DNA of 64,000 bases from a gamma proteobacterium symbiont of Stewartia floridana (GTDB lineage: Bacteria; Pseudomonadota; Gammaproteobacteria; Chromatiales; Chromatiaceae). Below are positions 4,928-57,339 of this stretch, in pieces (position 1 is the stretch's first letter; every line of letters starts with the position of its first letter). The stretch lies in the NCBI GenBank assembly GCA_003676145.1, contig NAUB01000020.1, positions 1-64,000 of the forward strand, read 5' to 3'. The notes beneath the pieces are model-generated. The model did not search any database, was not told the origin of the DNA, and worked only from the letters and a program-made list of their open reading frames with translations. Position numbers and translations under genes: made by a program.

Positions 4928-4946
4928 GGATCACCATCAATGATCC
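4928..4946. promoter_or_regulatory. Small palindrome between uspE-like gene and nhaR
   Basis: GGATCA and TGATCC form a 6-base inverted repeat around a 7-base loop in the 116-base gap. It could be a regulator site for the nhaR promoter or a weak terminator of the Mrp-Usp operon. There is no T tract on the minus strand. This rests on the symmetry alone. Confidence 0.25.
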
Positions 4947-4979
4947 TTGAGTTAAACTGACCTTTTGGATTAACGCAAC

Positions 4980-5909
4980 TCATTTCACCGGCGATACAAA
5001 ATTTGGTGGCTTGACCGCCAGTATCGAAGCTTTGGTCGTCTGCAATACATCTTCCGCCGTATTACCGATAAACAGTCCAGGCACACCCGTTCTTCCTACC
5101 GTACCCATGACGATCAGATCAGCATTGAGACTGTCGGAAAGCTGATGAATCACCTTTGAGGCATCGCCATGTACCAACTTTACCGCTGAGTCATCCGTTG
5201 ACATACCATAGTTTTCAAGTAGTGCCTGAAGTTTTCTCTTATGACTCATTTCAGTCATGTTGATCAACAGATTGAATTCGCTCTGCGAGAGACGCGAGCG
5301 GCCATCACGCAACATCGATTCACCTTTCATTTTCCAGGCGTGGGCAACGCTCAGTTGAGCCGACTCCCGATGCGCCAGGGATGTGGCCAGATCCATGACA
5401 AGCGAGGCACAGTTGTCACTCGCCTCGGCCATCGGATCGACAGCCGCCAACACCTGCTTGTATTCACTATCGGCACCCGGCCGATCAACCCAGACCGGAG
5501 AGGGGCACTTGCGCAACAGATGCAAGTCGGTACTCCCCAGCAGACGGTCGGACAGTCCGTCACAGCAGCGGGCGGATTTGATCACCAGATCGTAACCATG
5601 GGATATCACCGCCTTGATCACTTCGAGAAAAGGTTTACCCACTAACACCTTGGCATAGACCAGGTTATCAGCGGTCCGGAAAGGTTCGGCAAGCTCTTCT
5701 AACTGCTCCAGGCGTTGCTGTTTGAGTATCTCCTGCAGATCGAAATCAAAACGCTGGGAGAAATCCTGCGGTATGTCGATCGGCTCAATCACATCCAGCA
5801 AGGTCAGCCTGGCATGATTGCTTTCAGCCAGCAGAAACGCCCTTTCCAGTGCGTGGTCCGCCTGTTTACTGCCATCCGCGAAAAACAGAATATTCTTGAA
5901 TCGTTTCAT
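4980..5909 (-). CDS. Tandem-domain universal stress protein (UspE-like)
   Basis: A 309-residue protein with two consecutive Usp domains. The first (1-145) begins with KNILFFADGS and lacks a clean nucleotide loop. The second (about 152-300) carries GTVGRTGVPGLFIGNT, matching the G-2x-G-9x-G-[ST] ATP-binding pattern. This two-domain length is that of UspE. The role is stress survival, probably cytoplasmic. The ATG follows the stop of the third antiporter-like gene by only 10 bases, and its AGGAGG overlaps that stop codon, so it is almost certainly the last gene of the Mrp operon. Its placement suggests that the stress response and cation/pH homeostasis are co-expressed. Confidence 0.88.
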   Translation of the reverse strand: MKRFKNILFFADGSKQADHALERAFLLAESNHARLTLLDVIEPIDIPQDFSQRFDFDLQEILKQQRLEQLEELAEPFRTADNLVYAKVLVGKPFLEVIKAVISHGYDLVIKSARCCDGLSDRLLGSTDLHLLRKCPSPVWVDRPGADSEYKQVLAAVDPMAEASDNCASLVMDLATSLAHRESAQLSVAHAWKMKGESMLRDGRSRLSQSEFNLLINMTEMSHKRKLQALLENYGMSTDDSAVKLVHGDASKVIHQLSDSLNADLIVMGTVGRTGVPGLFIGNTAEDVLQTTKASILAVKPPNFVSPVK

Positions 5910-5919
5910 TACACGCCTC

Positions 5920-10468: not shown

Positions 10469-10742
10469 CGGCCATCTCCCGCAAACGACGGTTGAGTGCC
10501 AACGCCAGCGCGGTGGCGCTGATCGCCACCACCAGGCCTGTCAGCACCAGGGCATGGGGAACCGGGTCCACCGGCAGTGAATCGCCCCGGTAGGCGAGGG
10601 AGACAAAGATCAGGAATACACCGGCGCCACAGACGTTCAATGCCAACAGCCTGGGTAAAAGGGCATCCCGTAACAGGGTAGCCCGCACCCCCAGCATGAA
10701 CAGAACCGCACCGGTCAATGCATAGATCAGAGCCTGTGTCAT
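10461..10742 (-). CDS. mrpC: Na+/H+ antiporter subunit C (NuoK-like)
   Basis: A 93-residue three-helix protein of the NuoK/MrpC family. The conserved DPVPHALVLTGLVV segment corresponds to the DPLPQALILTAIVI signature of MrpC. The following family glycine region reads AISATA, so the usual FG-V/T pattern is altered. It overlaps its neighbours by 4 bases (upstream) and 8 bases (downstream), with GGGAGG before its ATG. Confidence 0.88.
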   Translation of the reverse strand: MTQALIYALTGAVLFMLGVRATLLRDALLPRLLALNVCGAGVFLIFVSLAYRGDSLPVDPVPHALVLTGLVVAISATALALALNRRLREMADE

Positions 10743-11698
10743 GAGGAGACCTCCCGGTTTTCAGCCTTTTCATCCATCAGCGGCCAGCCATCGGTCCTGC
10801 CACCCCGGTAGGCCAATACCAGAGCAGCGGCAATCGACGCTGTGGCAGCGACTTCAATGATCAGGATCAGACTGCCGGACCAGGCTTCCGGGTATTGCAG
10901 GAAACCTCCACCGCTGAAGCTCATAGCAAGACCGAACAGCAGAAATACCCCGGTTCCGGCCACCAGTAACCAACGCAGCAGCCTGCCATCCGGCAAACCC
11001 GCTGCATCATATCCAGCCAGCCGCAGCACAATACCGGCGGCCGCCAGGGTTGCCCCTGCCTGGAAGGCTCCCCCAGGCGCATGGGCGCCAACCCAGAGCA
11101 GATAACCGGCGGTCACGATCAACAAAGGAACCAGCCAGTGAACCAGACCATGGAACACCGGGCCTGCCTCTCGGTAGCCTCTACGCTCCCGCCCGACCAC
11201 GACCACTCCGAGCACCGCAGCCAACACCACCACCAACTCAAGCAGGGTGTCGTAGGCCCGGTAGTTGAGAAGTACCGCAGTAACCGGGTTACTCACCCCA
11301 CTGCGATCCAGCATGGCGTTGGCAAGCTGGGCCAATCTCTCCACCGGCTCGGCGTAAATGGTGAGCCAGAGTACCCAACCGATCAGGCAGGTCATCACCA
11401 GCACGAACAGATCGATCAACCAACGGTTGAGTGTTGAAGGCTTTGTGGCGTGCTGATCAGCACCACCCCCATCCCTCAATGCGACCAGCAGCAAGGCGCC
11501 GGAGAGACCAGCCCCGATCGCCGCCTCGGCCAGGGCCAGGTCGGGGGCGAGCAGCCTCGCCCAGACAATCGCCAACAGCAGACCAAAGGCGATGAACAGA
11601 ACCACACCCCGCCTCAGGTCATCACTGCTGAGCGCCGCCCAGGCCAGTCCGATCAACATCCCCGCCAGCAGCAGATCCGGAAGCAGCGTCAGATTCAT
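10739..11698 (-). CDS. Fused MrpA C-terminal (DUF4040/MbhD-MbhE) and MrpB subunit
   Basis: A 319-residue membrane protein that joins three modules normally found in the MrpA C terminus and MrpB. An MbhD-like part (about 1-80, with APDLALAEAAIGAGLSGALL) is followed by an MbhE-like part (about 95-170, with NPVTAVLLNYRAYDTLLELVV). Last comes the MnhB domain (about 180-300, with GAHAPGGAFQAGATLAAAGIVL). The ATG at 11698 overlaps the mrpG stop by one base (TGATG) and has GAGGAG upstream; a GTG one codon earlier is less likely. The fusion explains why no separate MrpB or full MrpA is present. Confidence 0.88.
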   Translation of the reverse strand: MNLTLLPDLLLAGMLIGLAWAALSSDDLRRGVVLFIAFGLLLAIVWARLLAPDLALAEAAIGAGLSGALLLVALRDGGGADQHATKPSTLNRWLIDLFVLVMTCLIGWVLWLTIYAEPVERLAQLANAMLDRSGVSNPVTAVLLNYRAYDTLLELVVVLAAVLGVVVVGRERRGYREAGPVFHGLVHWLVPLLIVTAGYLLWVGAHAPGGAFQAGATLAAAGIVLRLAGYDAAGLPDGRLLRWLLVAGTGVFLLFGLAMSFSGGGFLQYPEAWSGSLILIIEVAATASIAAALVLAYRGGRTDGWPLMDEKAENREVSS

Positions 11699-11979
11699 CA
11701 CGACCGACTCCTCCTCAAGGCATACTGGGAGATCAAATGGGCCGATGTGGCACTGCCCAGCAGTACCAGCAACCAGATCAGCAGCAGTTTCAACGCCACC
11801 AGCAGAGAGCCATGCAGCAGTGCCACCCCGACAATCAGCAGCCCCAGGCCCAGGTTGTCCGCTTTGGTCAACGCATGCAGCCGGGCGTGCAGATCAGGCA
11901 GTCGCAACAGACCGATCGCCCCCAGGAAAAAGAAGGTGATACCACTTAAGATCAGGAGCAGCGCCATCAGATCAAGCAT
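11698..11979 (-). CDS. mrpG: Na+/H+ antiporter subunit G
   Basis: A 93-residue, three-helix protein with the MrpG signature GLLRLPDLHARLHALTKADN. The ATG at 11979 is preferred over a GTG two codons upstream because GGAG lies 7 bases before it. It overlaps mrpF by 8 bases and the next gene by one. Confidence 0.9.
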   Translation of the reverse strand: MLDLMALLLILSGITFFFLGAIGLLRLPDLHARLHALTKADNLGLGLLIVGVALLHGSLLVALKLLLIWLLVLLGSATSAHLISQYALRRSRS

Positions 11980-12250
11980 CGTCACTCTCCCGTCGTGTCA
12001 TGGCAGCAGCAACAACCGCCGCCAGCAGCACCAGCACCAACCCAACATCGAGCAGCGCAGTAAGCTGCATCGAAACAGAGAGCAGCAACAGAACTGCTAC
12101 TCCTCCGGTACCGAGCAACAGAATCGACAACAGCCGGTCTTCCAGAGTCGGTCCTTTCAACGCCCTGACCATTCCCAACACCAGGCTCAACAGCAACAGA
12201 ATCAGCGCCAATAACAACAGGGAGTCCAGGGAGAGGATCGGCAGATTCAT
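11972..12250 (-). CDS. mrpF: Na+/H+ antiporter subunit F
   Basis: A 92-residue three-helix protein with the MrpF signature RALKGPTLEDRLLSILL after the first helix. Its ATG overlaps the mrpE stop (ATGA) and is preceded by GAGGAGG. It is a small membrane subunit of the antiporter complex. Confidence 0.9.
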   Translation of the reverse strand: MNLPILSLDSLLLLALILLLLSLVLGMVRALKGPTLEDRLLSILLLGTGGVAVLLLLSVSMQLTALLDVGLVLVLLAAVVAAAMTRRESDDA

Positions 12251-12798
12251 ACATCCTCCTCATAGACGGCGGCGACCATATGCTCCAAACGTCTCAACTC
12301 ACCATCGGAATCGGTAGCACGATCCAACGCATGGATGTGCAGAGTCTCCCCATCCAGATCGGCCGCCAGGGTTCCGGGCAACAGGCTGAGACTGTTGACG
12401 AACAGCCGTCTTGCCGATGGATGGGAGAGCCGCATCCGGTAGCTGAGGAAGCCTGGTGCGATACGCATCTTCGGGCTGACCACTCGGGAGGCCACGTCGA
12501 TACCACCCAATACGGACTCCCAGATGAAGTAGGGCAGGAATCTGAGAAAGCCAGTCAGATTGAATCGTCCCTCAGTCGGAGCACGCAACAGCAGAATGCT
12601 CCAAGTGGCCAAAATCACCACCGGCAAACCGACCAGCCAGGAGCTCCAATCCTCCCCGGTGAGTAACAACCAAAGCAGGGATAACAGAGCCAGGATGGAT
12701 AGGGTATAGCGGGGATTGGCAACAATCAGGTCTCTGTTTGACAGAACATCACTGAGCGGCTTCTCAACCCTCCGGGAACTCTTATCGCTGTCACTCAT
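12247..12798 (-). CDS. mrpE: Na+/H+ antiporter subunit E
   Basis: About 183 residues: a hydrophilic head, two hydrophobic segments (about 35-80) and an MNHE domain with FLRFLPYFIWESVLGGIDVA and the end-region SLLPGTLAADLDGETLHIHALD. The ATG at 12798 has GAGG 9 bases upstream; an in-frame ATG at 12813 is an alternative. It is the first gene of the operon E-F-G-(A/B)-C-D-D'-D''-usp, all overlapping by 1-8 bases or 10 bases apart. The 275 bases upstream (to 13073) should hold the promoter, but I cannot point to a clear -35/-10 pair. Confidence 0.9.
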   Translation of the reverse strand: MSDSDKSSRRVEKPLSDVLSNRDLIVANPRYTLSILALLSLLWLLLTGEDWSSWLVGLPVVILATWSILLLRAPTEGRFNLTGFLRFLPYFIWESVLGGIDVASRVVSPKMRIAPGFLSYRMRLSHPSARRLFVNSLSLLPGTLAADLDGETLHIHALDRATDSDGELRRLEHMVAAVYEEDV

Positions 12799-13073
12799 GG
12801 AATCTGGCCTCATGGTTTCTCACTACCTGAAGGATCACCCCTCAGTGTTTTCAAAACGCTTGGTAGTAGTTATGAGACTTCACGAAGCAAAAGAAAATTC
12901 GAATTTACACAAAAAATAAGTCGGTTTTTTCGATCTTTTGGCAAACTTGCAGGGAAATACAACAGAGTAAGCAGGTCTTTTAAGACTATGCCAAAGAGGT
13001 TCATTGCTGGGAAACAGCCGCTCACTGTTCCCGCCGAAATGACCAAAGGAAGTAAAACCGGATTGGAGTGGCT

Positions 13074-13370
13074 TCAGAAGGAGTATCGGTTGAGCTGTCG
13101 ACGCATCAGGCCGCGAACAATACGCGCAAGTGCACGGTTCACCGTCAGGCTGATATCAGCATGCCTCTCCTCGACAGCCAGTTTGCCGGTGTGGGGATCC
13201 GTAACCACCACTCTGCAATGATAGAGCGGCTCTTGCGTCCCCTCATCGGTCTGTGCAACACGCATCTCCAGCTTATCGACCAGTTCGTCCATCGGTCCCA
13301 TATGCAGGTTCAGCAGCTCCTGTATCTGATGCTCCAGCCGCGGATCGTCACAATGTATCTGTTTGACCAT
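13074..13370 (-). CDS. HPF/RaiA-like ribosome-associated protein
   Basis: A 98-residue protein whose pattern fits the S30AE (hibernation promoting factor) fold: IHCDDPRLEHQIQELLNLH, then a CRVVVTDPHTGKLAVE strand pair, then HADISLTVNRALARIVRGLM as the second helix. It lacks the long C-terminal tail of long HPF. These proteins bind the 30S decoding centre in resting cells. It follows the release-factor-like gene by 12 bases, so the two are co-transcribed. The family call is by overall pattern, so moderately sure. Confidence 0.65.
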   Translation of the reverse strand: MVKQIHCDDPRLEHQIQELLNLHMGPMDELVDKLEMRVAQTDEGTQEPLYHCRVVVTDPHTGKLAVEERHADISLTVNRALARIVRGLMRRQLNRYSF

Positions 13371-13382
13371 GATGACACACCG

Positions 13383-14579
13383 CTAAGCGACCCTTTCAGT
13401 GGCTACCGAAGCGTTCGGCCTGGGCATCACAGCCACATTGGTTGCATCACTGAGCAATCCACCGACCCCGCCTTGACGAAACAGCTCCCGGGTATTGCTT
13501 ACGAGAATTTTGATACCCTGTTGACATGCCAGCCGGCTCAACTCAATCCCGGGATCCCAGTACCTACCCCGATTGATCAGAGTTGCCTGCCCACTCTCCT
13601 TGTCAACAGATGCCAGCACACTCGATTGTGTCGAGTCGATCAGAGTGGGGGTCGTGTTGCTGGTAATCAGCAAGGTATCCAGCACCCGGGATTCGATTGC
13701 CTCAAGTGTACTGCTTGGGCCGGTAACACATCGGCGCCTGACCAGCGGAACCTGCAGACAGGATTTGGTAAACAGATCCACCGCCGCACGACAACCGGCT
13801 GCAGAGTGATCGATAATCTGTCTCAAGGCCCTGCCCCGATCCAGAAACGGTGAGACTGTTACGGTTTGTGAGACAGCCTTCGAAAGATGGCGTGGCAACC
13901 ACTGCCGCAGTTTCTCAATCCGATTGGTGTCACCCGCCAAAACCAGTTTCAGTCTACCCGCCGATTTCAGAACCCTTGAGAAGGTCTGCAGGGCAAACCC
14001 GCCAAATTGTCGCCCGCTCTTTACAGGCCTGTTTCTCGATAACAGACTCTTCTGATTGGCGGCATGCCACTCCACTCGCTTCTCAGCCACCCAGGCCAGG
14101 GTTTGAACATCACCACCCTCAATTCGCAACAACTCGACCCCATCAGATGCGGCCCACAACAGATAACGCTCTGCGTAAGCATCCCTGAGACTCAACAGAG
14201 GCCGAATATCCGGCACCCGGTAGAAGCTCAATTGATTTCTGAAAGGGAGCATGCTGGGTATCACTTCACTGAAACGTCCACCCATCATGCTGCGGGTAAA
14301 AATTGCCACACCACGTATCCCTTCTCTAAAGACACCATCGAACTGCTCCTGCAATCTCTGATAGGCTTCATCAAAATCGAGCTGCGCTATATCGCCCAGT
14401 CCCGACCTTATGAATTCCGCCTCCGAGGCAAGAAACTCCCGGCAGGCTTCAGCGCCGGTTTCCAGGTCAAGGTAACAACTGAGGAATGGGGCATCCGCTG
14501 CATCAACCGAAGTCAATAGCTCGATACTTCTGTCGAGTGAATCGAGGGATACCTGGGTGACTGTTTCTGAACAAGCCAT
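13383..14579 (-). CDS. Archaeal/eukaryotic release factor 1-like (baeRF-type) protein
   Basis: A 398-residue protein resembling bacterial members of the aeRF1 superfamily. The N-terminal part has FLSCYLDLETGAEACREFL, the middle domain has FGGFALQTFSRVLKSAGRLKLVLAGDTNRI (compare the Q/Q-F-R...L-L-G region), and the C-terminal domain ends with ILVSNTRELFRQGGVGGLLS, resembling the GGIGA(I/L)LR end of eRF1 domain 3. No GGQ motif is visible, so peptide release is doubtful. Bacterial members are predicted to act in ribosome rescue or quality control. ATG with GGAGAAG upstream. It pairs with the HPF-like gene downstream. Confidence 0.65.
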   Translation of the reverse strand: MACSETVTQVSLDSLDRSIELLTSVDAADAPFLSCYLDLETGAEACREFLASEAEFIRSGLGDIAQLDFDEAYQRLQEQFDGVFREGIRGVAIFTRSMMGGRFSEVIPSMLPFRNQLSFYRVPDIRPLLSLRDAYAERYLLWAASDGVELLRIEGGDVQTLAWVAEKRVEWHAANQKSLLSRNRPVKSGRQFGGFALQTFSRVLKSAGRLKLVLAGDTNRIEKLRQWLPRHLSKAVSQTVTVSPFLDRGRALRQIIDHSAAGCRAAVDLFTKSCLQVPLVRRRCVTGPSSTLEAIESRVLDTLLITSNTTPTLIDSTQSSVLASVDKESGQATLINRGRYWDPGIELSRLACQQGIKILVSNTRELFRQGGVGGLLSDATNVAVMPRPNASVATERVA

Positions 14580-14721
14580 GAATCTTCTCCATAATGTCTT
14601 TACACTATGGATTATCGTATGAAGTCATGATTGGCACATTCGGAATCGGGCTCGATATGATTCACTTTTTTCGATTCTTGAGATGACAGGTATAACGGCC
14701 AAACAATCTGTTGAATAAACT

Positions 14722-16155
14722 ATGACCATCAGCACCACCGGCTGGCTCAATCTTTCGTGGATTCTCCTCGACCTTGCCATTGTGGCGATTTTGATCCCCA
14801 CAATATTGCTTCAACGCAGAGAGTCTGGTGCCACCCTGGCTTGGATTCTGGTGATCGTCTTCATACCCTTTTTGGGGCTACTCGCTTTCTGGCTGTTGGG
14901 AACAACCCGTTTACACCTGAGGCGCAGAAAACGCCATCGAATAGAGACACGCCTGGCACCGGAAATTCAACGTTTACAAGCTAAAGCCAAACGCCATTCA
15001 GAGCCCGATCTGGCCCCCCGGTCCTTAATCCACCTGGCTCGGCAATTCGATGGCAATGGCCCTCTGTCCGGTAACCGGATCGAGATCTTCAGGTCCGGTC
15101 AATTGTTGTTCGACAATCTGCAGCAGGCGATCGACAAGGCAACTCAGCATGTCCACCTCGATTACTACATCTGGCAGGCGGACAGCACCGGACAAAGAAT
15201 TCTGCACGCCCTTGTGCGCGCTGCCAAGCGAGGGGTTGAAGTCCGACTGCTGATTGACGATGTGGGCTCGCGTGCAGTCAAACACGCTTTCTTTCAGCCT
15301 CTGCAACAGGCCGGGGGATGCATCAAACGCTTTCTCCCAGTCAATCCGCTGAATCGCCAACTCGCCCTGAACAATAGAAATCACCGTAAGCTGGTGATTA
15401 TCGATGGTGACCAGGCTTTCATTGGTGGCATGAATATCGGTGATCAGTATGCGGCCATCAGTGAACCATGGATCGATCTGCATGCACGCGTGGAAGGGCC
15501 GGTGGTGCATTCCATACAAGAGACCTTCTGCCAGGACTGGTTTCATGCCTCGGCTGAAGATTTGGTCAGACGCGACTATTTTCCGCAACCGACACACTAT
15601 GGACCGGTTCATGCACAGTTACTATCGAGCGGACCGGCAGACGAACGCTGGAAAAGTATTCATCTGTTCATCTTCACCGCAATCACCCTTGCCCGGCAGA
15701 AGGTATTCATCGAAACACCCTACTTCGTTCCTGACCAACCGATACTGCTCGCGTTACGAACCGCAGCCCTTAGAGGCATCGATGTACGCTTACTCCTACC
15801 CAGCCAATCGGATCATCCACTTGTACTCCATGCGGGACGTTCATTTCAGGATCAACTGCTGGAGGCCGGGGTAAAAATATTCGAACTGAAAAACAGCATG
15901 ACACACGCAAAAACCATTACCATTGACGGATACCTCTCCACCATCGGCTCAGCCAATCTCGACCAACGCAGCTTTCGCTTGAATTTTGAATCCAACTTGT
16001 TTTTTCTGGACCAGGCCATAACCAGTCAAATGGAGCAGGACTTCGTAAAACTCTGCGCCACAGCGGATGAAATCAAGCTCGATTACAGGAAGAGCCTACC
16101 CCGATCAAGAAGAATGGTTGAGTCGGCGTGTAGGCTCTTATCACCACTGTTGTAA
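14722..16155 (+). CDS. cls: Cardiolipin synthase
   Basis: A 477-residue phospholipase-D-family enzyme that joins two phosphatidylglycerol molecules, or a related pair, into cardiolipin at the inner membrane. Two N-terminal helices (about 9-30 and 38-60) anchor it. The two HKD motifs are intact: H221-x-K223-x4-D228 (HRKLVIIDGD) followed by GGMN, and H395-x-K397-x4-D402 (THAKTITIDG) followed by GSANLDQRS. The length matches ClsA. It is a single-gene unit transcribed away from the release-factor-like operon; its 3' end faces the DUF2189 gene across 18 bases. Confidence 0.93.
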   Translation: MTISTTGWLNLSWILLDLAIVAILIPTILLQRRESGATLAWILVIVFIPFLGLLAFWLLGTTRLHLRRRKRHRIETRLAPEIQRLQAKAKRHSEPDLAPRSLIHLARQFDGNGPLSGNRIEIFRSGQLLFDNLQQAIDKATQHVHLDYYIWQADSTGQRILHALVRAAKRGVEVRLLIDDVGSRAVKHAFFQPLQQAGGCIKRFLPVNPLNRQLALNNRNHRKLVIIDGDQAFIGGMNIGDQYAAISEPWIDLHARVEGPVVHSIQETFCQDWFHASAEDLVRRDYFPQPTHYGPVHAQLLSSGPADERWKSIHLFIFTAITLARQKVFIETPYFVPDQPILLALRTAALRGIDVRLLLPSQSDHPLVLHAGRSFQDQLLEAGVKIFELKNSMTHAKTITIDGYLSTIGSANLDQRSFRLNFESNLFFLDQAITSQMEQDFVKLCATADEIKLDYRKSLPRSRRMVESACRLLSPLL

Positions 16156-16173
16156 AGAGGCTTTGAGTGGTTA

Positions 16174-16941
16174 TCAATCAGCAACTGCCGCCTTATAAGC
16201 ATGCCAACTAGCATGACCCAACAGAGGCATGATGATAAGCAGACCGATAAACCCGGTAACCATTCCGACAATGGTCAATAAGGCAATTATAAAAGCCCAG
16301 CGGGCCATCACTGCCGGGTTCTTATGAACCACTCTCAAACTGGTCATCGCAGCGGTTATCACATCGATCTTACGCTCGACCAGCATCGGTATTGATACCA
16401 CGCTGATACTGAAGACCAGTGCCGCCAGTGCAAAACCCACCACGGCGTAGAGAACCATGAAACCTGGATCCGACAGGGCCTGCCAACTCAACAGATCGTT
16501 GAATGGTCCGAATGTCGGCAGGGAAAGAGCAACCAGCAATCCGGTCAACCTACCCCAGGCAACCATCACGATACCCAGGATCAGACCAAACAGCAGCACC
16601 GCCCAGCCATTATTTTTCCAACTGTAGACGATTGATTTGAAGCCAACAGGCTCGCCTTGCTGAATGCGTCTGCTGATCTCATAGAAACCCAATGCGAACA
16701 CCGGAGCGACAAGTAAGAATCCTGTGACGAAAGTGATCGTCAACAGCGGCGTGTTCCAGCTTGCTGAGACCAGGGCATAACCTGCCACAACAAACAGCAA
16801 CCCAAGCGTCAGACTCGGCAAGCTAGCCTGTCGAAAATCCTGCCAGCCATTACGCAACCAGTCGTATGGTGCCCGTTCACTCAGAGTGCGGACCTCAGGT
16901 GTGTTGGAACTGTTTAACCTTTCAGAATATGTAGTATCCAT
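16174..16941 (-). CDS. DUF2189-family integral membrane protein
   Basis: A 255-residue protein with a soluble N terminus (1-45, YDWLRNGWQDFRQ) and about six membrane helices. The pattern of helices and the segment FVTGFLLVAPVFALGFYEISRR fits DUF2189, a family of unknown function common in proteobacteria and sometimes next to respiratory genes. The ATG has GGAG upstream. The gene stands alone. Confidence 0.75.
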   Translation of the reverse strand: MDTTYSERLNSSNTPEVRTLSERAPYDWLRNGWQDFRQASLPSLTLGLLFVVAGYALVSASWNTPLLTITFVTGFLLVAPVFALGFYEISRRIQQGEPVGFKSIVYSWKNNGWAVLLFGLILGIVMVAWGRLTGLLVALSLPTFGPFNDLLSWQALSDPGFMVLYAVVGFALAALVFSISVVSIPMLVERKIDVITAAMTSLRVVHKNPAVMARWAFIIALLTIVGMVTGFIGLLIIMPLLGHASWHAYKAAVAD

Positions 16942-49221: not shown

Positions 49222-49368
49222 GGGCCTGTTAACACGAATCCAATGCGCCCTGTTGCGCCCAGCGGCGTTATCATTCGCTCATGTCGAATGGCTACGCTAC
49301 GCTCATTCTGCCTTGCTGGACACAAAAACAGACCCAGCAGGGCGTATTGGATTAGTGTTAACAGGCCC
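49222..49368. repeat. Dispersed inverted-repeat element, complete copy
   Basis: This 147-base element has long terminal inverted repeats. The outer 14 bases GGGCCTGTTAACAC are mirrored exactly by GTGTTAACAGGCCC, and the symmetry continues through GAATCCAAT...GCGCCCTG against CAGGGCGTATTGGATT for about 30 bases. The centre includes a small hairpin (CATTCG-CTCATGT-CGAATG). There is no open frame. It lies in the 351-base gap between glnE and the biosynthetic cluster. Copies or ends also occur at 1-113, 36454-36467 and 57494-57520. It is MITE-like, with possible TA at its ends (CCCTA). Confidence 0.85.
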
Positions 49369-49455: not shown

Positions 49456-50379
49456 ATGATCAAGCTGCAGCAAATAGCGTATCACTACCCACACCATCCC
49501 CCGCTCTTCGAGGGCGTGGACCTGGCTGTTGCCAAGGGGTCCCTGTTTGGCTTGCTCGGCCCAAACGGAGCGGGTAAAACGACCCTCATCTCGTTGATGA
49601 CCGGTCAGCTGCAACCCTCAGCCGGCGAAATCGAGATCGATGGTGAAAGCTACCCGGCAGACCGCACATCGATTCTGCAAAAGCTGGCCCACATCCCCCA
49701 GGAATATGCCTTCTACCCACAGTTGAGCGTACTGGAAAATCTGCAGTTCTTCGCCAGCCTCTATCCCGCACAGGAGAGTAACAGGGCCCAGCTGATCGAT
49801 CAGGCGCTGGAGCTGACCGGACTGACAGAACAGAGGCGAAGGCTGGCAAAACACTTCTCCGGTGGTTTGAAACGTCGCCTCAACCTGGCGATCGGTCTAC
49901 TCAACAAACCGCGATTGATCTTTCTCGATGAACCCACCGTGGGGATAGATCCTCAATCCCGCCATTTCATCCTGCAATCGATCCGGGAACTGAACAAGGC
50001 CGGCAGCACCATCGTCTACACCAGCCACTACATGGAAGAGATCGAACAGCTGTGCGACCAGGTGGCCATCATGGATCATGGCAGGATCCTGGTGCAGGGT
50101 GCGCTCCGCCAGATCCTCAAACGGGACCCTCAGCTGGTCGTCGAACTGGCACCAATAGACGACCAGAACCGATACGCACAGCTGAACAACACCCTGCAGA
50201 CCAGGGGCTTCAGCCTCTCCGAACTGACCATCAGCGGGTATCCGAAAGATCAGACGGAGATCGGCGAACTGCTACAGGTAGTGGCTTCACTCAACCTCTC
50301 TGTGGTCAATCTTTCCTACGGTAAACATACCCTGGAAAAGCTGTTTTTCGAATTGACCCATACCCGCTTGAGAGATTGA
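49456..50379 (+). CDS. ABC-2 type exporter ATPase
   Basis: A 307-residue ATPase of the DrrA/CcmA class: Walker A GPNGAGKT, signature HFSGGLKRRLNL, Walker B LIFLDEPTVGID and VYTSHYMEE. The C-terminal 80 residues are the usual extension of lipid and drug exporters. It starts an operon of five genes with an ABC-2 permease, ACP and two ketosynthase-like proteins, so it probably exports the product of this cluster. Confidence 0.88.
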   Translation: MIKLQQIAYHYPHHPPLFEGVDLAVAKGSLFGLLGPNGAGKTTLISLMTGQLQPSAGEIEIDGESYPADRTSILQKLAHIPQEYAFYPQLSVLENLQFFASLYPAQESNRAQLIDQALELTGLTEQRRRLAKHFSGGLKRRLNLAIGLLNKPRLIFLDEPTVGIDPQSRHFILQSIRELNKAGSTIVYTSHYMEEIEQLCDQVAIMDHGRILVQGALRQILKRDPQLVVELAPIDDQNRYAQLNNTLQTRGFSLSELTISGYPKDQTEIGELLQVVASLNLSVVNLSYGKHTLEKLFFELTHTRLRD

Positions 50380-50383
50380 AAGT

Positions 50384-51574
50384 ATGCTGTTTGCAGTGAT
50401 CAAGAAAGAGCTGTTGCTGGTCTCCCGGGACATCCATGCCCTGCTGGTGCTGTTCCTGCTGCCGATCGTATTCATCCTGATCATGTCCCTGGCACTGCAG
50501 GACCGGATGGGCGGCGAGTCCAAGGACCGCCCTGCAGTGGGCCTGTGGATGGCAGCCGACAATCATGACAATGGGGAGCTGATCCAGCATTTCCAACAGC
50601 TTGAAGGGGTAAGGGTTGAAAACTTCGAAAGCCCGGCAGAGCTGACCCGCGCCCTGCAGCAGGGAGCGATCATCGCTGGCGTCATGCTGCCCGCACGGTT
50701 TGAGAAGATCATCCAGGCCCCGGTGACCGAAAGCAGTGAAAAACTGCGGGTGCTCTATGGGGCCACCCTGCCAGGTTCAATGCGTCGATCGATCCTGGGT
50801 GCGGTACGGCAGGCCCTCGGCGCCTATCAGGTCAATCAACTGTTCAAACATGACGACCTCACTGAAACAGAGCGCCAGCAGCGGGTCGACCATCTGCTGG
50901 GTAAATCCCTGGTTGTCACAGAGACACTTGGCGCCGAGACGCAATCCCAGCCCAATTCGGTTCAGCAGAGTGTTCCCGCCTGGCTGATTTTTGCAATGTT
51001 CTTTGTGGTGCTGCCGATCTCCACAACCCTGCTGACAGAACGCCAGCAAGGCACGCTGCATCGCCTGCAGACCCTGCCGGTACCCCGCAGCTATCTGCTG
51101 ATCGGCAAACTGATACCCTACCTGGGAATCAACCTGATACAGGCGGCATTGATGCTGCTGGTCGGCATCCATCTGGTACCGCTGCTGACCGGTGAGGGAC
51201 TGCAACTCAACGGGCAGAGCTGGTTGCTGCTGCCGTTGATCATAGCCACCAGTCTGTCGGCGATCAGCTTCGCCCTGCTGATCGCCACCCAGGCCAAGAC
51301 CACTGAGCAGGCCACCACGCTTGGCGGAATCAGCAACCTTATTCTGGCCGCCATTGGTGGTATCATGGTGCCGACTTTTGTAATGCCTGAGCTGATGCAG
51401 CAGATCGCCGCTCTCTCTCCCATGAACTGGGCGCTGGAAGGCTTCTTCTCCATCCTGTTGAGACAAGGTGGATGGGCCATGGCCGGGCCCGAGATTCTCA
51501 AGTTGTTGGCATTCTCCGGCTGTTTGTTTTTACTTTCACTCCATTCATATAAAGGCCTGACGGAAATCAAATAA
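50384..51574 (+). CDS. ABC-2 type exporter permease
   Basis: A 396-residue permease with one helix (about 13-35), a periplasmic domain (36-195) and a C-terminal set of five or six helices. The ABC2_membrane pattern LLTERQQGTLHRLQTLPVPRS and GGIMVPTFVMP are visible. It begins 4 bases after the ATPase gene, and its stop overlaps the ACP start (TAATG). That overlap ties transport to acyl-ACP chemistry. Confidence 0.85.
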   Translation: MLFAVIKKELLLVSRDIHALLVLFLLPIVFILIMSLALQDRMGGESKDRPAVGLWMAADNHDNGELIQHFQQLEGVRVENFESPAELTRALQQGAIIAGVMLPARFEKIIQAPVTESSEKLRVLYGATLPGSMRRSILGAVRQALGAYQVNQLFKHDDLTETERQQRVDHLLGKSLVVTETLGAETQSQPNSVQQSVPAWLIFAMFFVVLPISTTLLTERQQGTLHRLQTLPVPRSYLLIGKLIPYLGINLIQAALMLLVGIHLVPLLTGEGLQLNGQSWLLLPLIIATSLSAISFALLIATQAKTTEQATTLGGISNLILAAIGGIMVPTFVMPELMQQIAALSPMNWALEGFFSILLRQGGWAMAGPEILKLLAFSGCLFLLSLHSYKGLTEIK

Positions 51575-51843
51575 TGAAAGGTTCAACGGATACTCAGTTC
51601 AAATCGGAACTCAAACAGATGATCGTTGAAGAGTGCCGGTTAGATGATTTCGATCCCCAGGATATCAAGGACGACGAATATCTGGCCGGACCGGAGGCTC
51701 GTTTTGGACTCGACTCCATCGATATGCTTCAAGTCATCGTCACGATCAAAAACCGCTACGGCGTACACATCCAGAATGACGCCGAATCAAGAGAGATTCT
51801 TGCCACCATCAACAACCTGGCGGACCATTTACGCCCAGAGTAA
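51574..51843 (+). CDS. Acyl carrier protein
   Basis: An 89-residue ACP with the phosphopantetheine serine S48 in ARFGLDSIDML. The acidic helix pattern is normal, and a short insertion (EYLAGPEA) sits before the serine helix. It is encoded between the exporter and the ketosynthase, one base overlapping the former and 4 bases before the latter. It is probably the dedicated carrier for the cluster, distinct from the fatty-acid AcpP. Confidence 0.9.
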   Translation: MKGSTDTQFKSELKQMIVEECRLDDFDPQDIKDDEYLAGPEARFGLDSIDMLQVIVTIKNRYGVHIQNDAESREILATINNLADHLRPE

Positions 51844-51847
51844 GGAA

Positions 51848-52996
51848 ATGGAGTCAACCAAGCTTCCCATCATCGGATATGCCTGCGCATCCCACCTCGG
51901 CGAATCACTCAGCAATCCGTCGGGTCCGCACGGTGCAAGCGGGCAGTTCGGACCGCCCACGCTGCAACTCGATTCCACCCGACTGCAGCTGCCCTACTAT
52001 TCGCTCGACGATGATTTCGACGATCCGGATCGAACCGAACGCATCCTCTTCGAAGTCATCGAAAAGGCTCTGCAGAGGAGTCAGTTGAGCCCAGCTGAGA
52101 TCCGTCACACCGGTCTGTTCATCGGCTCATCCTCCTATGACCTGCGCGACAGTGAGATCGATTACAGACAGAAGCTTGAGGCGGGGGATCAATCCGCGGT
52201 GCCAATGCCGTTTACCGGTTACAACCGCCTGGGCGAATCGATCTGCCGCAAATTTGCTATCGACAGTGAACCTTTCAATATCAACTCGGCCTGCACCTCC
52301 AGTGCGAATGCCCTGTTGCTGGCCCAGAGTATGGTGCAGCAGGGTTTTTACGAGCATGCGCTGGTGGTGGGCATCGAACTCTATAACGAGACCACCCTTA
52401 ACGGTTTCGCCGGCATGCAACTGATCGCCGAGCAGCGTGTTGCCCCCTTCGACAAAACCCGGGACGGCATCATCCTGGGCGAATCCTGCTCCGCTGTGAT
52501 CATCAGCAGGCAGAGCAAAGGTTCAGCCTCTCTGATGCTGCGCGGTGGTGGCAGCTGCTTCGACCCCTACAGTATCACCACATCGAACCCGGATGGTTCG
52601 ACCATCGCCCGGACGCTGGAAAATGCACTGCACCAGACGGGTACCGAAAGATCCGATGTGGTTGCGATCAAAACCCACGGTACAGCGACCTATATGAATG
52701 ACATTTCAGAGTCGCAGGGGATTCTCAGCGCATTTCCCGAACAGACACCACCGATCACCGCCATCAAACCCTATGTAGGTCATACTCTCGGGGCATGTGG
52801 CACACTGGAACTGATTCTGTTTGCCGAGGCACTTGAACAGGGGTACATACCCAAGACCCCCAACTTTGAAATCTCCGATCCGGAGCTCTCTCTAACCCCA
52901 CTGCAAGAGGATCTTGACGCTACGGATGGCGTCTATCTTCTCAACTATTTTGGATTCGGCGGTAGCAATACCGTACTCGTCGTGGAAAAGGTCTAA
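51848..52996 (+). CDS. Beta-ketoacyl-ACP synthase (FabF-like)
   Basis: A 382-residue ketosynthase with the catalytic triad Cys-His-His: C149 in NSACTSSANALL, H277 in KTHGTATYMND and H312 in PYVGHTLGACG. The G-S-N end NYFGFGGSNTVLV is intact. It should condense malonyl-ACP with an acyl chain. It is 20-30 residues shorter than FabF at the N terminus. AAGGA lies close before the ATG. Its stop overlaps the next gene (TAATG), which encodes a KS-like partner, recalling KS/chain-length-factor pairs. Confidence 0.9.
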   Translation: MESTKLPIIGYACASHLGESLSNPSGPHGASGQFGPPTLQLDSTRLQLPYYSLDDDFDDPDRTERILFEVIEKALQRSQLSPAEIRHTGLFIGSSSYDLRDSEIDYRQKLEAGDQSAVPMPFTGYNRLGESICRKFAIDSEPFNINSACTSSANALLLAQSMVQQGFYEHALVVGIELYNETTLNGFAGMQLIAEQRVAPFDKTRDGIILGESCSAVIISRQSKGSASLMLRGGGSCFDPYSITTSNPDGSTIARTLENALHQTGTERSDVVAIKTHGTATYMNDISESQGILSAFPEQTPPITAIKPYVGHTLGACGTLELILFAEALEQGYIPKTPNFEISDPELSLTPLQEDLDATDGVYLLNYFGFGGSNTVLVVEKV

Positions 52997-53865
52997 TGGA
53001 TTTGAACCTCTCTCTGTTTGCTTATGGTGGCTTTAGTCAGACTGTTGACCAGCAGCTGCCCGATCTGAACCAGGCGTTGAAGGCGCTACCCTATAAGCTG
53101 CCTCGCCGCTCGGATCGACTCACCCAGCTGAGCCTGTTGGGCCTGCACCAGAGCTCTGGCGATGCCGGTTTCGATGCCGGGATGCATCTGGTTCTGGCAA
53201 GTGGTGACGCCAACCTCAACAGCACCATCCTCAATAGCGAGCAGATCTTTGACAGCGGCACCCTGCCCAATCCGATCGGTTTCATCAATACCGTCAACAA
53301 CTCAACCGCCTACCATATCTGTGTCACCCTAGGGGTCCAGGGACAGGCGATCAGCGTATCCAGGGACCACTGCTCCCTCGAGGCCGGACTGCAGATTGCG
53401 GCAACCCTACAACACAGCGACCCATCGCCGATCCTGCTCGGCACCGTCGATGAAGTACCCAATGATCCGGATCAGCATCGGCAGCGTTTGAACATGCCAG
53501 CGGCGACTCCGCTGGCGGAAGGCAGTTTCTGGTTCCACTGTGGCCACCCACAGCAACAGGAAACCGCCCTTGCCACAATCGAATATTGCGGACCGCTGCG
53601 CGACAGTGGGCGCATCGAAGAATTTCTAGAGCAACGTCAGATCAGCCACCACCTGATCGGGGATTTCCTGCACAACAGTGCGGTGAGTGAGATGCAATTG
53701 CCGGGAGCGCGGCTCGTCACCCAGAGCCTGGGCCACTATCTGACGCAAAATGCGGACTACCTGCAGCAATGGCTGGATCAGGCGCAATCCGGTGAGCGTC
53801 TGGGGATGCTGAACGGTACCGCCGGCAGCGACCGACTGACCGTCACTTTGATTCTAAAACACTGA
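52996..53865 (+). CDS. Half-length ketosynthase-like protein
   Basis: A 289-residue protein resembling the N-terminal thiolase-fold half of ketosynthases (the Ketoacyl-synt_2 type found in aryl-polyene clusters). PNPIGFINTVNNSTAYH and ISVSRDHCSLEAGLQIA look like the region around a KS active site, with C126 in the place of the nucleophile, but the two catalytic histidine motifs are absent. It is likely a structural or chain-length partner of the complete ketosynthase just upstream. Its last 23 bases overlap, tail to tail, the BtrH-like gene. Confidence 0.7.
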   Translation: MDLNLSLFAYGGFSQTVDQQLPDLNQALKALPYKLPRRSDRLTQLSLLGLHQSSGDAGFDAGMHLVLASGDANLNSTILNSEQIFDSGTLPNPIGFINTVNNSTAYHICVTLGVQGQAISVSRDHCSLEAGLQIAATLQHSDPSPILLGTVDEVPNDPDQHRQRLNMPAATPLAEGSFWFHCGHPQQQETALATIEYCGPLRDSGRIEEFLEQRQISHHLIGDFLHNSAVSEMQLPGARLVTQSLGHYLTQNADYLQQWLDQAQSGERLGMLNGTAGSDRLTVTLILKH

Positions 53866-54844
53866 GGCGGGCAAACAACTCAGCTTCACGCAAGGCGATC
53901 TTATCCAACTGGTCGGCGATTGAGTCGAAGGTATCGTCATAGCGGGCTTTGCTCTTGCGCGCACACATCAGGGCGAACAGCCGCCACTCATCACCGATCG
54001 ACGACATCTCATCGGCCGCTTCGGCCAGCTGATCCGACGCCAGAATCTCCGCCGCCTCCTGCAGGAAGGCAGCATACATAAAGCGAAAACCGCCACCTCC
54101 GGTGCCGATCTCCTCCTGCATACGCACTATATGGCCGAGATAGAGATGGGCATAGCGCTCCTCCGCATCGACCAGTTTGCGGATGTTTCTGGCCACCCGC
54201 TGAATCCCCTTCGCCCCCGCAATGGGTACAGGACTTCGCTTGCCATTGATCTTGGCGGTGAAACGGATCGCTTTCGGCAGGACGGTTTTGAAATCGATCT
54301 CAGCGGGTACCTCGGCCGGGTAGTAGAGCAGCCCTTTGGGGGCCAGCGCGCCTTTGGCAAAACGCGCCTTGTTGAGACTCGGCCTGTCCACCGTCACCAG
54401 GTGGGAAAACACCGGATCACTGACCTGGAACGCTTCACCCTCACGGCCGTAGACCAGCAGATTATGCGCATTGAAATGGAAGCGCATATCCTCGGGGAAA
54501 TAGGGCAGAAAGAAGACCGAAGTCTGCAGACCGACAATCCGCCCATCATCCAGCAACCGATCAAGCGCGGCTTCACCCTGGGCCGGTTTACGAAATTTCT
54601 GAAACGCCATTTTCAGCCCGCCAATACGCCGCGAGAGGGCACGGATGATCATCCGTGGGGGAGTTCGATAGGCGATCAACGGCAGTCCGTTGATTTTTAC
54701 CATCGGGATATAGGCATAGGTCAGGCCGCTTGCCAGACCGAAGGCCATGGGCTCGGACACCTCCAGTCCATGATATCGAAGCATGGCGGACATGACGCCT
54801 GTCTCACAATGCGCCGCATGCCGGTGCTCGAGTGGTTTATTCAT
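53843..54844 (-). CDS. BtrH-like acyltransferase (BtrH_N plus DUF4872)
   Basis: A 333-residue protein. The N-terminal BtrH domain has the Cys near the start (RHAAHCETGVMSAMLRYHG, C13) with H127 (FNAHNLLVYG) and D143 (VSDP), a papain-like arrangement. The C-terminal part is DUF4872-like, with TGGGGFRFMYAAFLQEAA. BtrH moves an acyl group from an ACP to an amine in butirosin synthesis. By analogy this enzyme may transfer the product from the ACP of this cluster. The ATG at 54844 overlaps the preceding gene by 8 bases. Confidence 0.75.
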   Translation of the reverse strand: MNKPLEHRHAAHCETGVMSAMLRYHGLEVSEPMAFGLASGLTYAYIPMVKINGLPLIAYRTPPRMIIRALSRRIGGLKMAFQKFRKPAQGEAALDRLLDDGRIVGLQTSVFFLPYFPEDMRFHFNAHNLLVYGREGEAFQVSDPVFSHLVTVDRPSLNKARFAKGALAPKGLLYYPAEVPAEIDFKTVLPKAIRFTAKINGKRSPVPIAGAKGIQRVARNIRKLVDAEERYAHLYLGHIVRMQEEIGTGGGGFRFMYAAFLQEAAEILASDQLAEAADEMSSIGDEWRLFALMCARKSKARYDDTFDSIADQLDKIALREAELFARLSVLESK

Positions 54845-55244
54845 AGGTCTCAGGTAGTTGTTTGAGTGTATCACGATCGATACCCAGTACGTCGGCATAG
54901 CCATCCAGCTTCTCGGCCGAGAGTCTGGCAAAGCGTTGTGGTGAAAAGTCCCGTTTCACCATCCATTGAAAGCGACCTACCGCCTGAGCCAGCATCGGCA
55001 GATCCATACGCTGATGATACATATGAAATTCCAGTGCCGAGGTTTTTCCCTGTCTGGCCCGCTGATAGGCATCCAGGGTGAGCCGTTTGATCTCATCCAG
55101 CGCCTGACCGAGCACGATCTCCTCGACTTCCCACCCATTGGTCTCGGACGACTCGATCCGGCCGGAGTCCGACTCCGCATAGATCACCTTGGTCTCGCCA
55201 CCCAGGGATCCTGCTCTATCCTGCGGAATGTCTTTGATCTTCAT
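54837..55244 (-). CDS. Unrecognised 135-residue protein in biosynthetic cluster
   Basis: A soluble protein with no signal peptide or membrane helix. It is predicted mostly helical (ALDEIKRLTLDAYQRARQGK, DLPMLAQAVGRFQWMVKRDF). It overlaps both neighbours (ATGA with the KAS III gene, 8 bases with the BtrH-like gene), so it is an integral part of the operon. The motif FHMYHQRMDLPMLAQ is striking. I do not recognise the family; a role as cyclase, docking or regulatory partner is speculative. Confidence 0.7.
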   Translation of the reverse strand: MKIKDIPQDRAGSLGGETKVIYAESDSGRIESSETNGWEVEEIVLGQALDEIKRLTLDAYQRARQGKTSALEFHMYHQRMDLPMLAQAVGRFQWMVKRDFSPQRFARLSAEKLDGYADVLGIDRDTLKQLPETYE

Positions 55245-56389
55245 ACCACGCTCAATAACATGAATGAACTGGAAAAGCGCCCGCTCTCCGGGACGAAACA
55301 GAGCAGCCGCTCACCGCTTTTCAACTGTCCGGATTTTAGCAGTTCATCCAGCATGATGTAGATCGAGGCGGAGCCGGTATTGCCCCGGGTGGTCAGATTG
55401 GTGAACCAGCGCTCACGGGGAATCTCGAAATCGAGCTCCACCAGCGCCTCGTAGACCTTCTCATCGAAATACATGGAGGAGATGTGAGGCAGAAAATAGT
55501 CCACCTGATCCGCCTGCAGGCCGGTTTTGGCGATCACCCGCTTGAGGGTCTCCTTGACCGCCATGGGTACGATGTTCTCATTCAGCAGCTTGACGTCCTG
55601 TTTGATGCTCATCACCGAGTGATCGATCAAGCCCTGCTGGGTGTAGAGCTTCCAGCTCTCCAGACTGCCATCCTCCAGCTTTTCCGCACCGGAGTACATG
55701 CAGGTCTCAAGCTCATTCGCATAGGAGTAGATCTCAATCCACTCGATCTCCACCACCGGCTGTTGCGCCCGCTGGTTGGGCTCGCTTTCGACACGAAAGG
55801 CACCGGCGCCATCGGACAGCATCCAGCGCAGAAAATCTTTCTCAAAGGCGATTTCCGGGTTTTTCTTAAGGTTTTCGATTTTGTACTTCGACTCGCCCTC
55901 GAAATGGCTGGCCCGCAATACCGGCGAAACCAGCTCCGAGCCGGTGGAGACCGCCTGTTTGAATTCGCCGCTTTTCACCGCCAGATAGGCATATTTGAGT
56001 GCCGCCGCACCACTCAGACAGATCCCGGATGTGGAGATAACCTCGCAACACTGATTCCCCAGCTCCCCATGCACCATCAACCCATGGCCCGGCATCACCT
56101 GGTCCGGAATCGAGGTACCGGAGACCAGACACTGCATCTGATTGAGCTCAGCCTCTGAAGCAAACAACTGTCGTACGCAGAGTGCGGTCATTTCGGCATT
56201 GCTGTGACTCAGCTCGCCACTCTCCGGATCAATCGCATAGTAGCGCTGCTTGATACCGTTACTGCGCAATACCAGACGCTTGGCACGGGAGGGTTTACCG
56301 CCCACCATGCCCAGCACATCCTCGATCTGCTCATTCTCAACAGGCTGATTCGGCAGAAATGCCGACGTATTGGTTATGTATGCCCTCAT
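55241..56389 (-). CDS. KAS III-like ketosynthase (DarB-type)
   Basis: A 382-residue FabH-fold enzyme with intact Cys-His-Asn triad: C124 in STSGICLSGAAAL, H302 in YFLPHISSMYFDEK, N337 in TTRGNTGSASIYIML. It is longer than FabH (about 320) and resembles the DarB group, which condenses two beta-ketoacyl units to a cyclohexanedione during dialkylresorcinol formation. Its neighbour upstream, a flavodoxin-like DarA-type protein, fits that pathway. ATGA overlap with that gene. Confidence 0.78.
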   Translation of the reverse strand: MRAYITNTSAFLPNQPVENEQIEDVLGMVGGKPSRAKRLVLRSNGIKQRYYAIDPESGELSHSNAEMTALCVRQLFASEAELNQMQCLVSGTSIPDQVMPGHGLMVHGELGNQCCEVISTSGICLSGAAALKYAYLAVKSGEFKQAVSTGSELVSPVLRASHFEGESKYKIENLKKNPEIAFEKDFLRWMLSDGAGAFRVESEPNQRAQQPVVEIEWIEIYSYANELETCMYSGAEKLEDGSLESWKLYTQQGLIDHSVMSIKQDVKLLNENIVPMAVKETLKRVIAKTGLQADQVDYFLPHISSMYFDEKVYEALVELDFEIPRERWFTNLTTRGNTGSASIYIMLDELLKSGQLKSGERLLCFVPESGRFSSSFMLLSVV

Positions 56390-57339
56390 TTACCGCAACC
56401 GAATTCTTCCATGCGCTCACTCCCTGAACCGGAAGGCGCCTCAAAATATGTTTTAATCTGTTGGTGTCTTTGCTTCATCAGCGGCGCCAGTAGCGCCTTG
56501 AGAAGCATGCTCAATGGCACCACGGTGACAATCATCAGAATCAGAAATACCACATAGACCGCCAACACGGGTGTCCGTCTGGAATCACCCTGTTTGCCGA
56601 TCCTGCGCAACAACTTACCCCAAATCAGGAAACTACGATAACCCACTTTTTCTGATTGAATTTGGCTCACATCCGCTTCCACTGCCTGCAGCCCCTGTAA
56701 CAATGGGCCGTCGCTCCTCTCCGCATCCTCACCAAGCGCCTGTTCAATCGCCTGACCGAAGCGGCAGCAGGCCTGAATCTCCTGATCGGAGACCCCGGCG
56801 GCGGGAAACCCCCAGAAGGGCTCCTTTTTACCTGTCCACAGCCATCTTGGGGTGGTGACGAAGGAGGCCAGCAGGGAGCCCTGATCTGTCAGCACCACAT
56901 TATCGATTAAACGCGCGCCACAGTCATCCAGCATCACCTTCATGGTCTCTTGCGCCCGTGTCCACATATTGCGGCAGCCGATGACCGTGATCACCGGTTT
57001 ACCGTTGAGTAACCGCTTGGCCTGCTCACTCTGCAGGAAGCCGGTTATCGGCAGGGCCGGGGCCAGAAACCAGACCTGATAGGCGAGGATCACCAGGTCC
57101 GCATCGTAATCAGCATCGATCTGCAGTGGCATCAACTCTGGGGCATCCAGATAGACGCACTCTGGAAAAACATCCAAAAACCGGAAAAACGGCCAGGGAA
57201 ATGGATAGGGATCCAACGGTCTGAGGGTCTCTGTTTTCAGCTCAATAGCGGCCGATTCCTGCAGCGGCGCACTGATCGACTGAACAATGCTGGAGAGCTG
57301 ACCGGTTTGCGAATATTGAAGTACTAGGATCTTTTTCAT
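56386..57339 (-). CDS. Flavodoxin-like DarA-type protein with C-terminal membrane helix
   Basis: A 317-residue protein. The first residues MKKILVLQYSQTGQLSSI form a flavodoxin phosphate loop (YSQTGQ) for FMN. DADLVILAYQVWFLAPALPI and KPVITVIGCRNMW are further flavodoxin-fold blocks. A helix near 265-290 (VYVVFLILMIVTVVPLSMLL) may anchor it. Similar proteins are known as dialkylresorcinol aromatase DarA, which acts after DarB. It is the first gene of the minus-strand arm. The product class is inferred from the DarA/DarB pairing. Confidence 0.7.
   Translation of the reverse strand: MKKILVLQYSQTGQLSSIVQSISAPLQESAAIELKTETLRPLDPYPFPWPFFRFLDVFPECVYLDAPELMPLQIDADYDADLVILAYQVWFLAPALPITGFLQSEQAKRLLNGKPVITVIGCRNMWTRAQETMKVMLDDCGARLIDNVVLTDQGSLLASFVTTPRWLWTGKKEPFWGFPAAGVSDQEIQACCRFGQAIEQALGEDAERSDGPLLQGLQAVEADVSQIQSEKVGYRSFLIWGKLLRRIGKQGDSRRTPVLAVYVVFLILMIVTVVPLSMLLKALLAPLMKQRHQQIKTYFEAPSGSGSERMEEFGCGK

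Follow-up and report, generated by a model that had tools for sequence, protein, structure and literature searches.

The question raised by positions 49456-57339 of a 64,000-nucleotide stretch of contig NAUB01000020.1 (assembly GCA_003676145.1, from a gamma proteobacterium symbiont of Stewartia floridana; the whole stretch is referred to as the window) is what could be made by nine genes that include a DarA/DarB-type dialkylresorcinol (DAR) pair and, as a preliminary description of the locus had stated, no ketoreductase, dehydratase, ammonia lyase or AMP ligase. The answer favored here, with a probability of roughly 0.72, is that the locus is the DAR arm of a pathway to an aryl polyene (APE)-DAR pigment like arcuflavin or flexirubin, whose genes are divided between two unlinked loci. 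The reasons are that its genes correspond by annotation to a dar locus described in Azoarcus sp. BH72, that curated models recognize DarB, DarD and DarE, that the same genome has an APE cluster and a UbiC, and that DarE co-occurs with APE genes in other genomes.

The nine open reading frames (ORFs) are all intact and lie in two converging, tightly packed arms. They are named here as in Azoarcus; the NCBIfam names differ, DarD belonging to its DarG family and DarE being its DarH. Arm 1, on the plus strand, starts with the exporter genes: darF (49456-50379) encodes an ABC transporter ATPase (PF00005, 110 bits; the best NCBIfam model, DrrA, is under its cut-off) and darI (50384-51574) an ABC-2 permease (PF12698, 132 bits). 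Next come darC (51574-51843), encoding an acyl carrier protein (ACP) with Ser48 (PF00550, 24 bits, cut-off 20.8; the nearest NCBIfam subfamily, PRK09184, gives 55.5 bits, under its cut-off of 70), darJ (51848-52996, taking as start the ATG at 51848 of a frame that is open from 51644), encoding a ketosynthase (KS) with C149, H277 and H312 (PF02801 and PF00109), and darK (52996-53865), encoding a half-length KS-like protein that resembles a chain-length factor (CLF; PF13723, E 0.0029, under cut-off). The other arm, on the minus strand, comprises darE (53843-54844), for a BtrH-like acyltransferase (NF053550, DarH_acyl, 462 bits, cut-off 300; PF14399, BtrH_N, and PF16169, DUF4872, are also over cut-off), darD (54837-55244), for a 135-residue protein of the DarG family (NF053536, 149 bits, cut-off 70), darB (55241-56389), for a KAS III enzyme, a ketosynthase-cyclase of the StlD/DarB type (NF005293, 598 bits, cut-off 450), and darA (56386-57339), for a flavodoxin-like domain with a C-terminal helical region, which has no curated family over cut-off. 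From darF to darA along the window the spacings are +4, -1, +4, -1, -23, -8, -4 and -4 bases; the darK and darE stops overlap where the arms converge, by 23 bases, darD overlaps darE by 8 and darA overlaps darB by 4. The genes, coordinates, spacings and catalytic residues of the preliminary description (Ser48 of the ACP, the C149/H277/H312 set of the KS, the C-H-N triad of the KAS III) were correct, and family searches bear out its DarA/DarB-type pair, ACP, KS/KS-like pair, BtrH-like transferase and ABC-2 exporter. The 135-residue protein which it called unknown has a name in a curated NCBIfam model, that of the DarG family.

The same genes were printed in 2014 for Azoarcus sp. BH72 (azo0283-azo0293), where Table 1 lists darK, J, C, I, H/G, F, E, D, B and A and annotates darJ as a KS, darC as an ACP, darI as an ABC permease, darF as an ABC ATPase, darE as BtrH-like, darB as DAR-cyclase and darA as DAR-aromatase, with darD and darK entered only as "hypothetical" (PMC3949708). 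The nine genes look like this dar set, as matched by annotation: darA to darF and darI to darK each have a counterpart, and in both cases the polyene genes are unlinked. BH72 differs in having two extra genes, PilT- and Phd-like, named darH and darG, and in having its polyene genes at two mutually unlinked loci, including a XanB2-type chorismatase (PMC3949708), whereas one APE-KS locus is found here. The features shared with the Azoarcus type are a DarB with intact C-H-N, an adjacent DarA, DarD and DarE beside darB, and darF, I, C, J and K, the last of these being known in BH72 by annotation only, as the "hypothetical" entry of Table 1. When expressed in E. coli, the BH72 DAR proteins yielded DAR 7 (PMC3949708), and heterologous DarA plus DarB make DARs (PMC3949708, PMC3992019). 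The native BH72 pigment, arcuflavin, is assigned from mass spectrometry (MS) to a polyene-DAR hybrid carrying an aryl-polyene acyl group, and Table S7 of the same paper has DAR clusters in 16 of 39 genomes, nine of them inside or beside a polyene cluster (PMC3949708). A second known relative is the flexirubin cluster of Bacteroidota, where darA-darB occur with polyene genes and the product is a polyene-DAR ester (PMC3992019); NCBIfam also holds a flexirubin branch of the DarD family. There the starter comes from a tyrosine ammonia-lyase, for which this genome has no PF00221 match. The description of the locus as a minimal, possibly undescribed variant is contradicted by the 2014 gene set and by the unlinked APE cluster of this genome; BH72 dar/arcuflavin largely answers to the known, chemically characterized cluster type that would, by the preliminary description itself, refute it. 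The cluster type is already known and ordinary, and novelty is not supported; the resorcinol lipid product that had been proposed is probable.

Where, then, is the polyene half? Five PF00109 matches are found in the genome, and one of them, at 66.8 kb of contig G000:C1, lies inside an APE cluster (positions 2885-16348 of the stretch L015, which is G000:C1:57000-76000). This cluster encodes an ACP (110 bits, cut-off 70), a KS (PRK09185, 548 bits, cut-off 407), a CLF-like protein (PF13723, 107 bits), a FabG-type ketoreductase (351 bits, cut-off 273), an AMP-ligase-like protein (best model 4-coumarate-CoA ligase, under cut-off), an MMPL-like exporter (under cut-offs), a FabA-like dehydratase, a lipid-A-acyltransferase-like protein, a LolA-like protein, a glycosyltransferase and a DUF218 protein. 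A 150-AA ORF with no family match sits where a second dehydratase would be expected, and a tryptophan-halogenase-like flavoprotein is encoded at the end of the cluster (L015 15110-16348, minus strand), so that the polyene ring might be halogenated. It is the one APE-KS locus found in the genome (KS over cut-off), and it lies on a different contig from the dar locus, more than 100 kb away judging by contig positions. The stated lack of a ketoreductase, dehydratase, ammonia lyase and AMP ligase therefore holds for the dar locus and not for the genome, in which only the aromatic ammonia lyase is not found (no PF00221 match in an assembly 96.97% complete). The genome does encode UbiC, a source of 4-hydroxybenzoate. 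The chorismatase model PF21168 gave no match in this genome, nor did it in any control. A seemingly incomplete locus can in this way be completed by an unlinked cluster.

Other genomes also carry the dar genes and an APE KS together. DarK was sought in 56 genomes, 22 of them (this one included) of the same genus, and was found in seven, all among the 22; an APE KS over cut-off is present in 7/7 of these dar-positive genomes versus 4/15 of the dar-negative ones of the genus (Fisher p 0.0019). The window and five fetched stretches of the genus hold darA, B, D and E, darA being cut by the contig end in L020, and the seventh stretch (L019) ends within darE at a contig end. In a class sample of 369 genomes, DarE (DarH_acyl) is over cut-off in 18, and each of these 18 also passes the APE KS cut-off, as do 82 of the 369 overall (Fisher p 3.5e-13, kinship ignored), and in 7 of the 18 the DarE gene and the APE KS lie within 30 kb on one contig. 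Three further genomes of the class match DarH_acyl under cut-off, one match being a 35-residue piece, and the stretches fetched for the other two (L093 and L094) hold no darA, B, C, D, J or K. Of the 369 genomes, 21 have a DarB over cut-off, again with an APE KS over cut-off in each (21/21). Four genomes with DarB-like matches under cut-off (G111, G335, G053 and G257) gave neither a BtrH-like match nor an APE KS over cut-off, and their stretches (just 5.8 kb in the case of L219) hold no darA, D or E.

That the two arms might rarely co-occur, a possibility raised with the preliminary description, is not borne out. Among the best 80 of 565 confirmed named loci, 48 have at least 7 kb on either side of darE, and 41 of these 48 hold all nine genes, counted within a 10-kb radius at score thresholds set by the authors. 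The rest comprise two without darK, two without darJ and darK, one with darA, B, D and E only, one with darD and darE plus KS genes, and one with arm 1 and darD-darE and no darA or darB; in L138, counted as lacking darK, that gene is present just beyond the radius. The same genes recur across many other genomes, so the locus is not a chance assembly, and because nine-gene loci span many genera (records of Pseudomonas, Vibrio, Photobacterium, Dechloromonas, Sulfurimonas, Neisseria, Aggregatibacter and Desulfobulbus are among them), with 41 of 48 complete, the set is widespread. Its orientation varies: of the 59 loci that have darF, I, C and J, 29 carry arm 1 and darE on different strands, as in the window, and 30 carry them on the same strand; in L138 the opposite-strand arm 1 sits on the far side of darA. 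Within the class, 17 relatives were compared; 16 of them keep darA, B, D and E together, and in L084 darA would fall past the contig end. Arm 1 (darF, I, C, J) is present in 11 of the 17, while in L077, L080 and L086 the BtrH-like gene is less than 2 kb from a contig end. The closest named DarE match among the best 80 is from Candidatus Thiodiazotropha sp. 'RUGA' (L095; 100% over 243 residues). Candidatus Thiodiazotropha are clam symbionts, and the window adds a probable genome of this group to the likely makers of polyene-dialkylresorcinol pigments; the literature search found no paper joining Thiodiazotropha and dialkylresorcinol.

The residues expected of the DAR enzymes are in place. Cys124, His302, Asn331 and Asn337 of DarB are invariant in 20/20 aligned rows, and its profile finds the StlD structures 5gk0-5gk2 (E 9e-181); like the StlD/DarB ketosynthase-cyclases it scores well over their model, while under the stricter resorcinol_DarB exception model it reaches 522 bits, short of the cut-off of 550. 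DarA of the window gave no family within E 0.01 and no curated DarA model matched it; in its alignment 4/19 rows match a flavodoxin model (best E 0.002), and its AlphaFold model (predicted local distance difference test, pLDDT, 91.1) matches PnpB, WrbA and flavodoxin folds (best E 4.6e-7), in agreement with the flavodoxin-like character first ascribed to it. Matches of the same model to some receptor structures are taken to reflect long C-terminal helices. The name DarA rests on the position beside darB, kept in 16/17 class relatives (the 17th is cut by a contig end), and on the predicted flavodoxin-like fold.

In DarE, H12, C13, H123, H127 and D143 are invariant in 20/20 rows, and Cys13 is presumably the nucleophile, a suggestion that draws on this invariance and on general knowledge of the BtrH family. 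DarE resembles BtrH, the butirosin acyltransferase, in its BtrH_N and DUF4872 domains, and differs in belonging to the separate curated family DarH_acyl. A PDB sequence search with DarE gave no convincing solved relative (coiled-coil designs from E 0.0021, Azi29/AziU3 at E 0.6), and with DarD the best match was at E 0.77. The DarD model (pLDDT 86.6, lower over the first 50 residues) gave Foldseek matches to many helix-turn-helix proteins, C.BclI, SinR and 434 Cro among them, which cover some 60 residues at the C-terminal end, and also to phosphonate enzymes such as HppE, the best at E 0.012 and none at or below 0.001, which is suggestive of a helix-turn-helix-like C-terminal part. Against the flexirubin-specific DarG equivalog, DarD scores 109 bits, under the cut-off of 170.

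The pair DarJ-DarK is like ApeO-ApeC (PDB 7F28, 6QSP) in that a KS precedes a KS-like partner of half the size, and is unlike it in that both proteins fall under the cut-offs of the corresponding models: the best NCBIfam model for DarJ, PRK09185, gives 194 bits against a cut-off of 407 that the APE KS of the same genome passes, and DarK is below the PF13723 cut-off. When 14 DarJ sequences are aligned with FabF and the APE KS of this genome, every row has C149 and H312 (16/16), and 15/16 have H277. In the PDB, DarJ matches 7f28_B, the ApeO chain, best; 49 chains, all from KS enzymes but of diverse kinds, score below E 1e-20, 6qsp_A among them. The catalytic Cys of a KS is missing from DarK. A profile built from 14 DarK rows together with the CLF-like protein encoded in the APE cluster of this genome matches the ApeC-type chains 7f28_A (E 5.7e-6) and 6qsp_B (2.5e-5), and ordinary FabF chains too (best 1e-7). 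An RR pair is invariant in 15/15 rows of that profile, at the place where the HMMER alignment puts Arg30-Arg31 of Acinetobacter ApeC; it is not diagnostic, since the aligned FabF 1j3n has it too. DarK was also considered as a broken full-length KS, which was rejected, the half-length frame being open in all seven genomes of the genus that have DarK. The 11 class relatives that have arm 1 also show a K-type frame after DarJ; tblastn found it in 9, L081 among these having a short frame only, and L079 and L076 were judged by eye from ORF lists. From these sequences a KS-CLF heterodimer is inferred for DarJ-DarK.

In the pathway proposed, DarC and DarJ-DarK would supply a ketoacyl chain, which DarB would condense and cyclize with a second, fatty-acid-derived thioester, after which the flavodoxin-like DarA would aromatize the ring to a 2,5-dialkylresorcinol (the two roles are those given in PMC3949708, their details being general background). 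The cluster on G000:C1, to go by its gene content, would make an aryl-polyenoyl-ACP. DarE, judged from its family and its co-occurrence, would take the polyenoyl group on Cys13 and esterify a phenolic hydroxyl. DarF-DarI may export the product or an intermediate, and the predicted fold of DarD would allow a regulator or scaffold. DarE is a candidate for the ester bond because the BtrH-like gene is nested in genomes having darA-darB and an APE KS, and it probably esterifies the DAR with the aryl polyene; the 2014 flexirubin paper suggested a ligase-like enzyme, FlxW, for the corresponding bond (PMC3992019).

That proposal for FlxW is one of several points that weigh against the joined pathway. 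The ester bond of arcuflavin was predicted from MS fragmentation, nuclear magnetic resonance being impossible, and the mutants shown in the sections of that paper used here are in the polyene genes arcK and arcT, none in dar (PMC3949708). The match to BH72 is one of annotation, the co-occurrence tests treat related genomes as independent, and the reading as a whole stands on gene content, intact residues and co-occurrence. Moreover, three class genomes (G254, G231 and G138, 82, 96 and 85% complete) have DarB over cut-off, an adjacent darA and an APE KS, with no BtrH-like match anywhere in the assembly; the corresponding stretches of about 17 kb (L215, L216, L217) hold darA and darB without darD, darE or arm 1. 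DarE would thus seem not to be needed wherever DAR and APE meet, and either another enzyme esterifies there or DAR and APE stay separate. Where the role of DarE is concerned, these three genomes offer a natural contrast. They also speak for an alternative product, a free dialkylresorcinol that the ABC transporter would export as a signal or antibiotic lipid, independently of the aryl polyene, with DarE acting on some other substrate. The placing of the dar and APE loci on different contigs would suit such a product, as would three records of deltaproteobacterial metagenome-assembled genomes (L147, L156, L174) that have a D-E pair with neither darA nor darB in the stretch (which in L156 extends just 2.5 kb to one side; such genomes may be incomplete) and no DarB over cut-off in the record (3/3), that of L156 having a split DarB-like match elsewhere. 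It is nevertheless unlikely, given the nesting of the BtrH-like gene in APE-positive genomes (18/18 in the class, with dar 7/7 in the genus) and the closeness of both loci on one contig in 7/18. The same records also admit the distinctly unlikely idea that D-E is a portable two-gene module that would join acyl chains from ACP, aryl-polyene ones or their like, by ester bonds to a variety of lipids -- DAR where darA-darB are present, another acceptor in the deltaproteobacterial loci -- with DarD a repurposed helix-turn-helix scaffold or specificity subunit and not a transcription factor.

Arm 1 itself raises a further alternative, in which the DAR would receive from DarE an acyl chain built separately by DarC-DarJ-DarK, giving an acylated DAR and not an aryl-polyene ester. 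DarJ, though related to the APE KS, has diverged from it, and its operon provides it with an ACP and a CLF-like partner; in L174 arm 1 accompanies D-E with no adjacent darA or darB. This is improbable, since arm 1 has no ketoreductase or dehydratase, arcuflavin bears an aryl-polyene acyl group (PMC3949708), and arm 1 is missing from the stretch in 3 of the 14 class loci uncut on that side, all of which keep darA, B, D and E. Those three loci (L087, by tblastn only, L091 and L092), where arm 1 is absent from the fetched stretch despite about 9 kb following, the rest of the genome being unsearched, count against the APE-DAR pathway as well. The minimal variant of the preliminary description, borrowing core reductases and exporting a resorcinol- or acyl-type lipid, is highly improbable and was rejected in view of the unlinked APE cluster. 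The nine genes do lack a ketoreductase, dehydratase and ligase, and FabH- and FabF-type matches of core fatty acid synthesis are present in the genome; against this, borrowed reductases are unneeded for the polyene half, the dedicated cluster having its own ketoreductase, FabA-like dehydratase and AMP-ligase, and a gene set already in print and complete at 41 of 48 loci contradicts the novelty.

Beside the dar locus, at 49222-49368, lies an element of about 150 bases with 29-base inverted terminal repeats (arms 49222-49250 and 49340-49368), which recurs at positions 85-113 of the window. It looks like a repeat of the miniature inverted-repeat transposable element kind at which the assembly breaks, since it gave 91 BLAST match pieces in the genome, many of them at contig ends.

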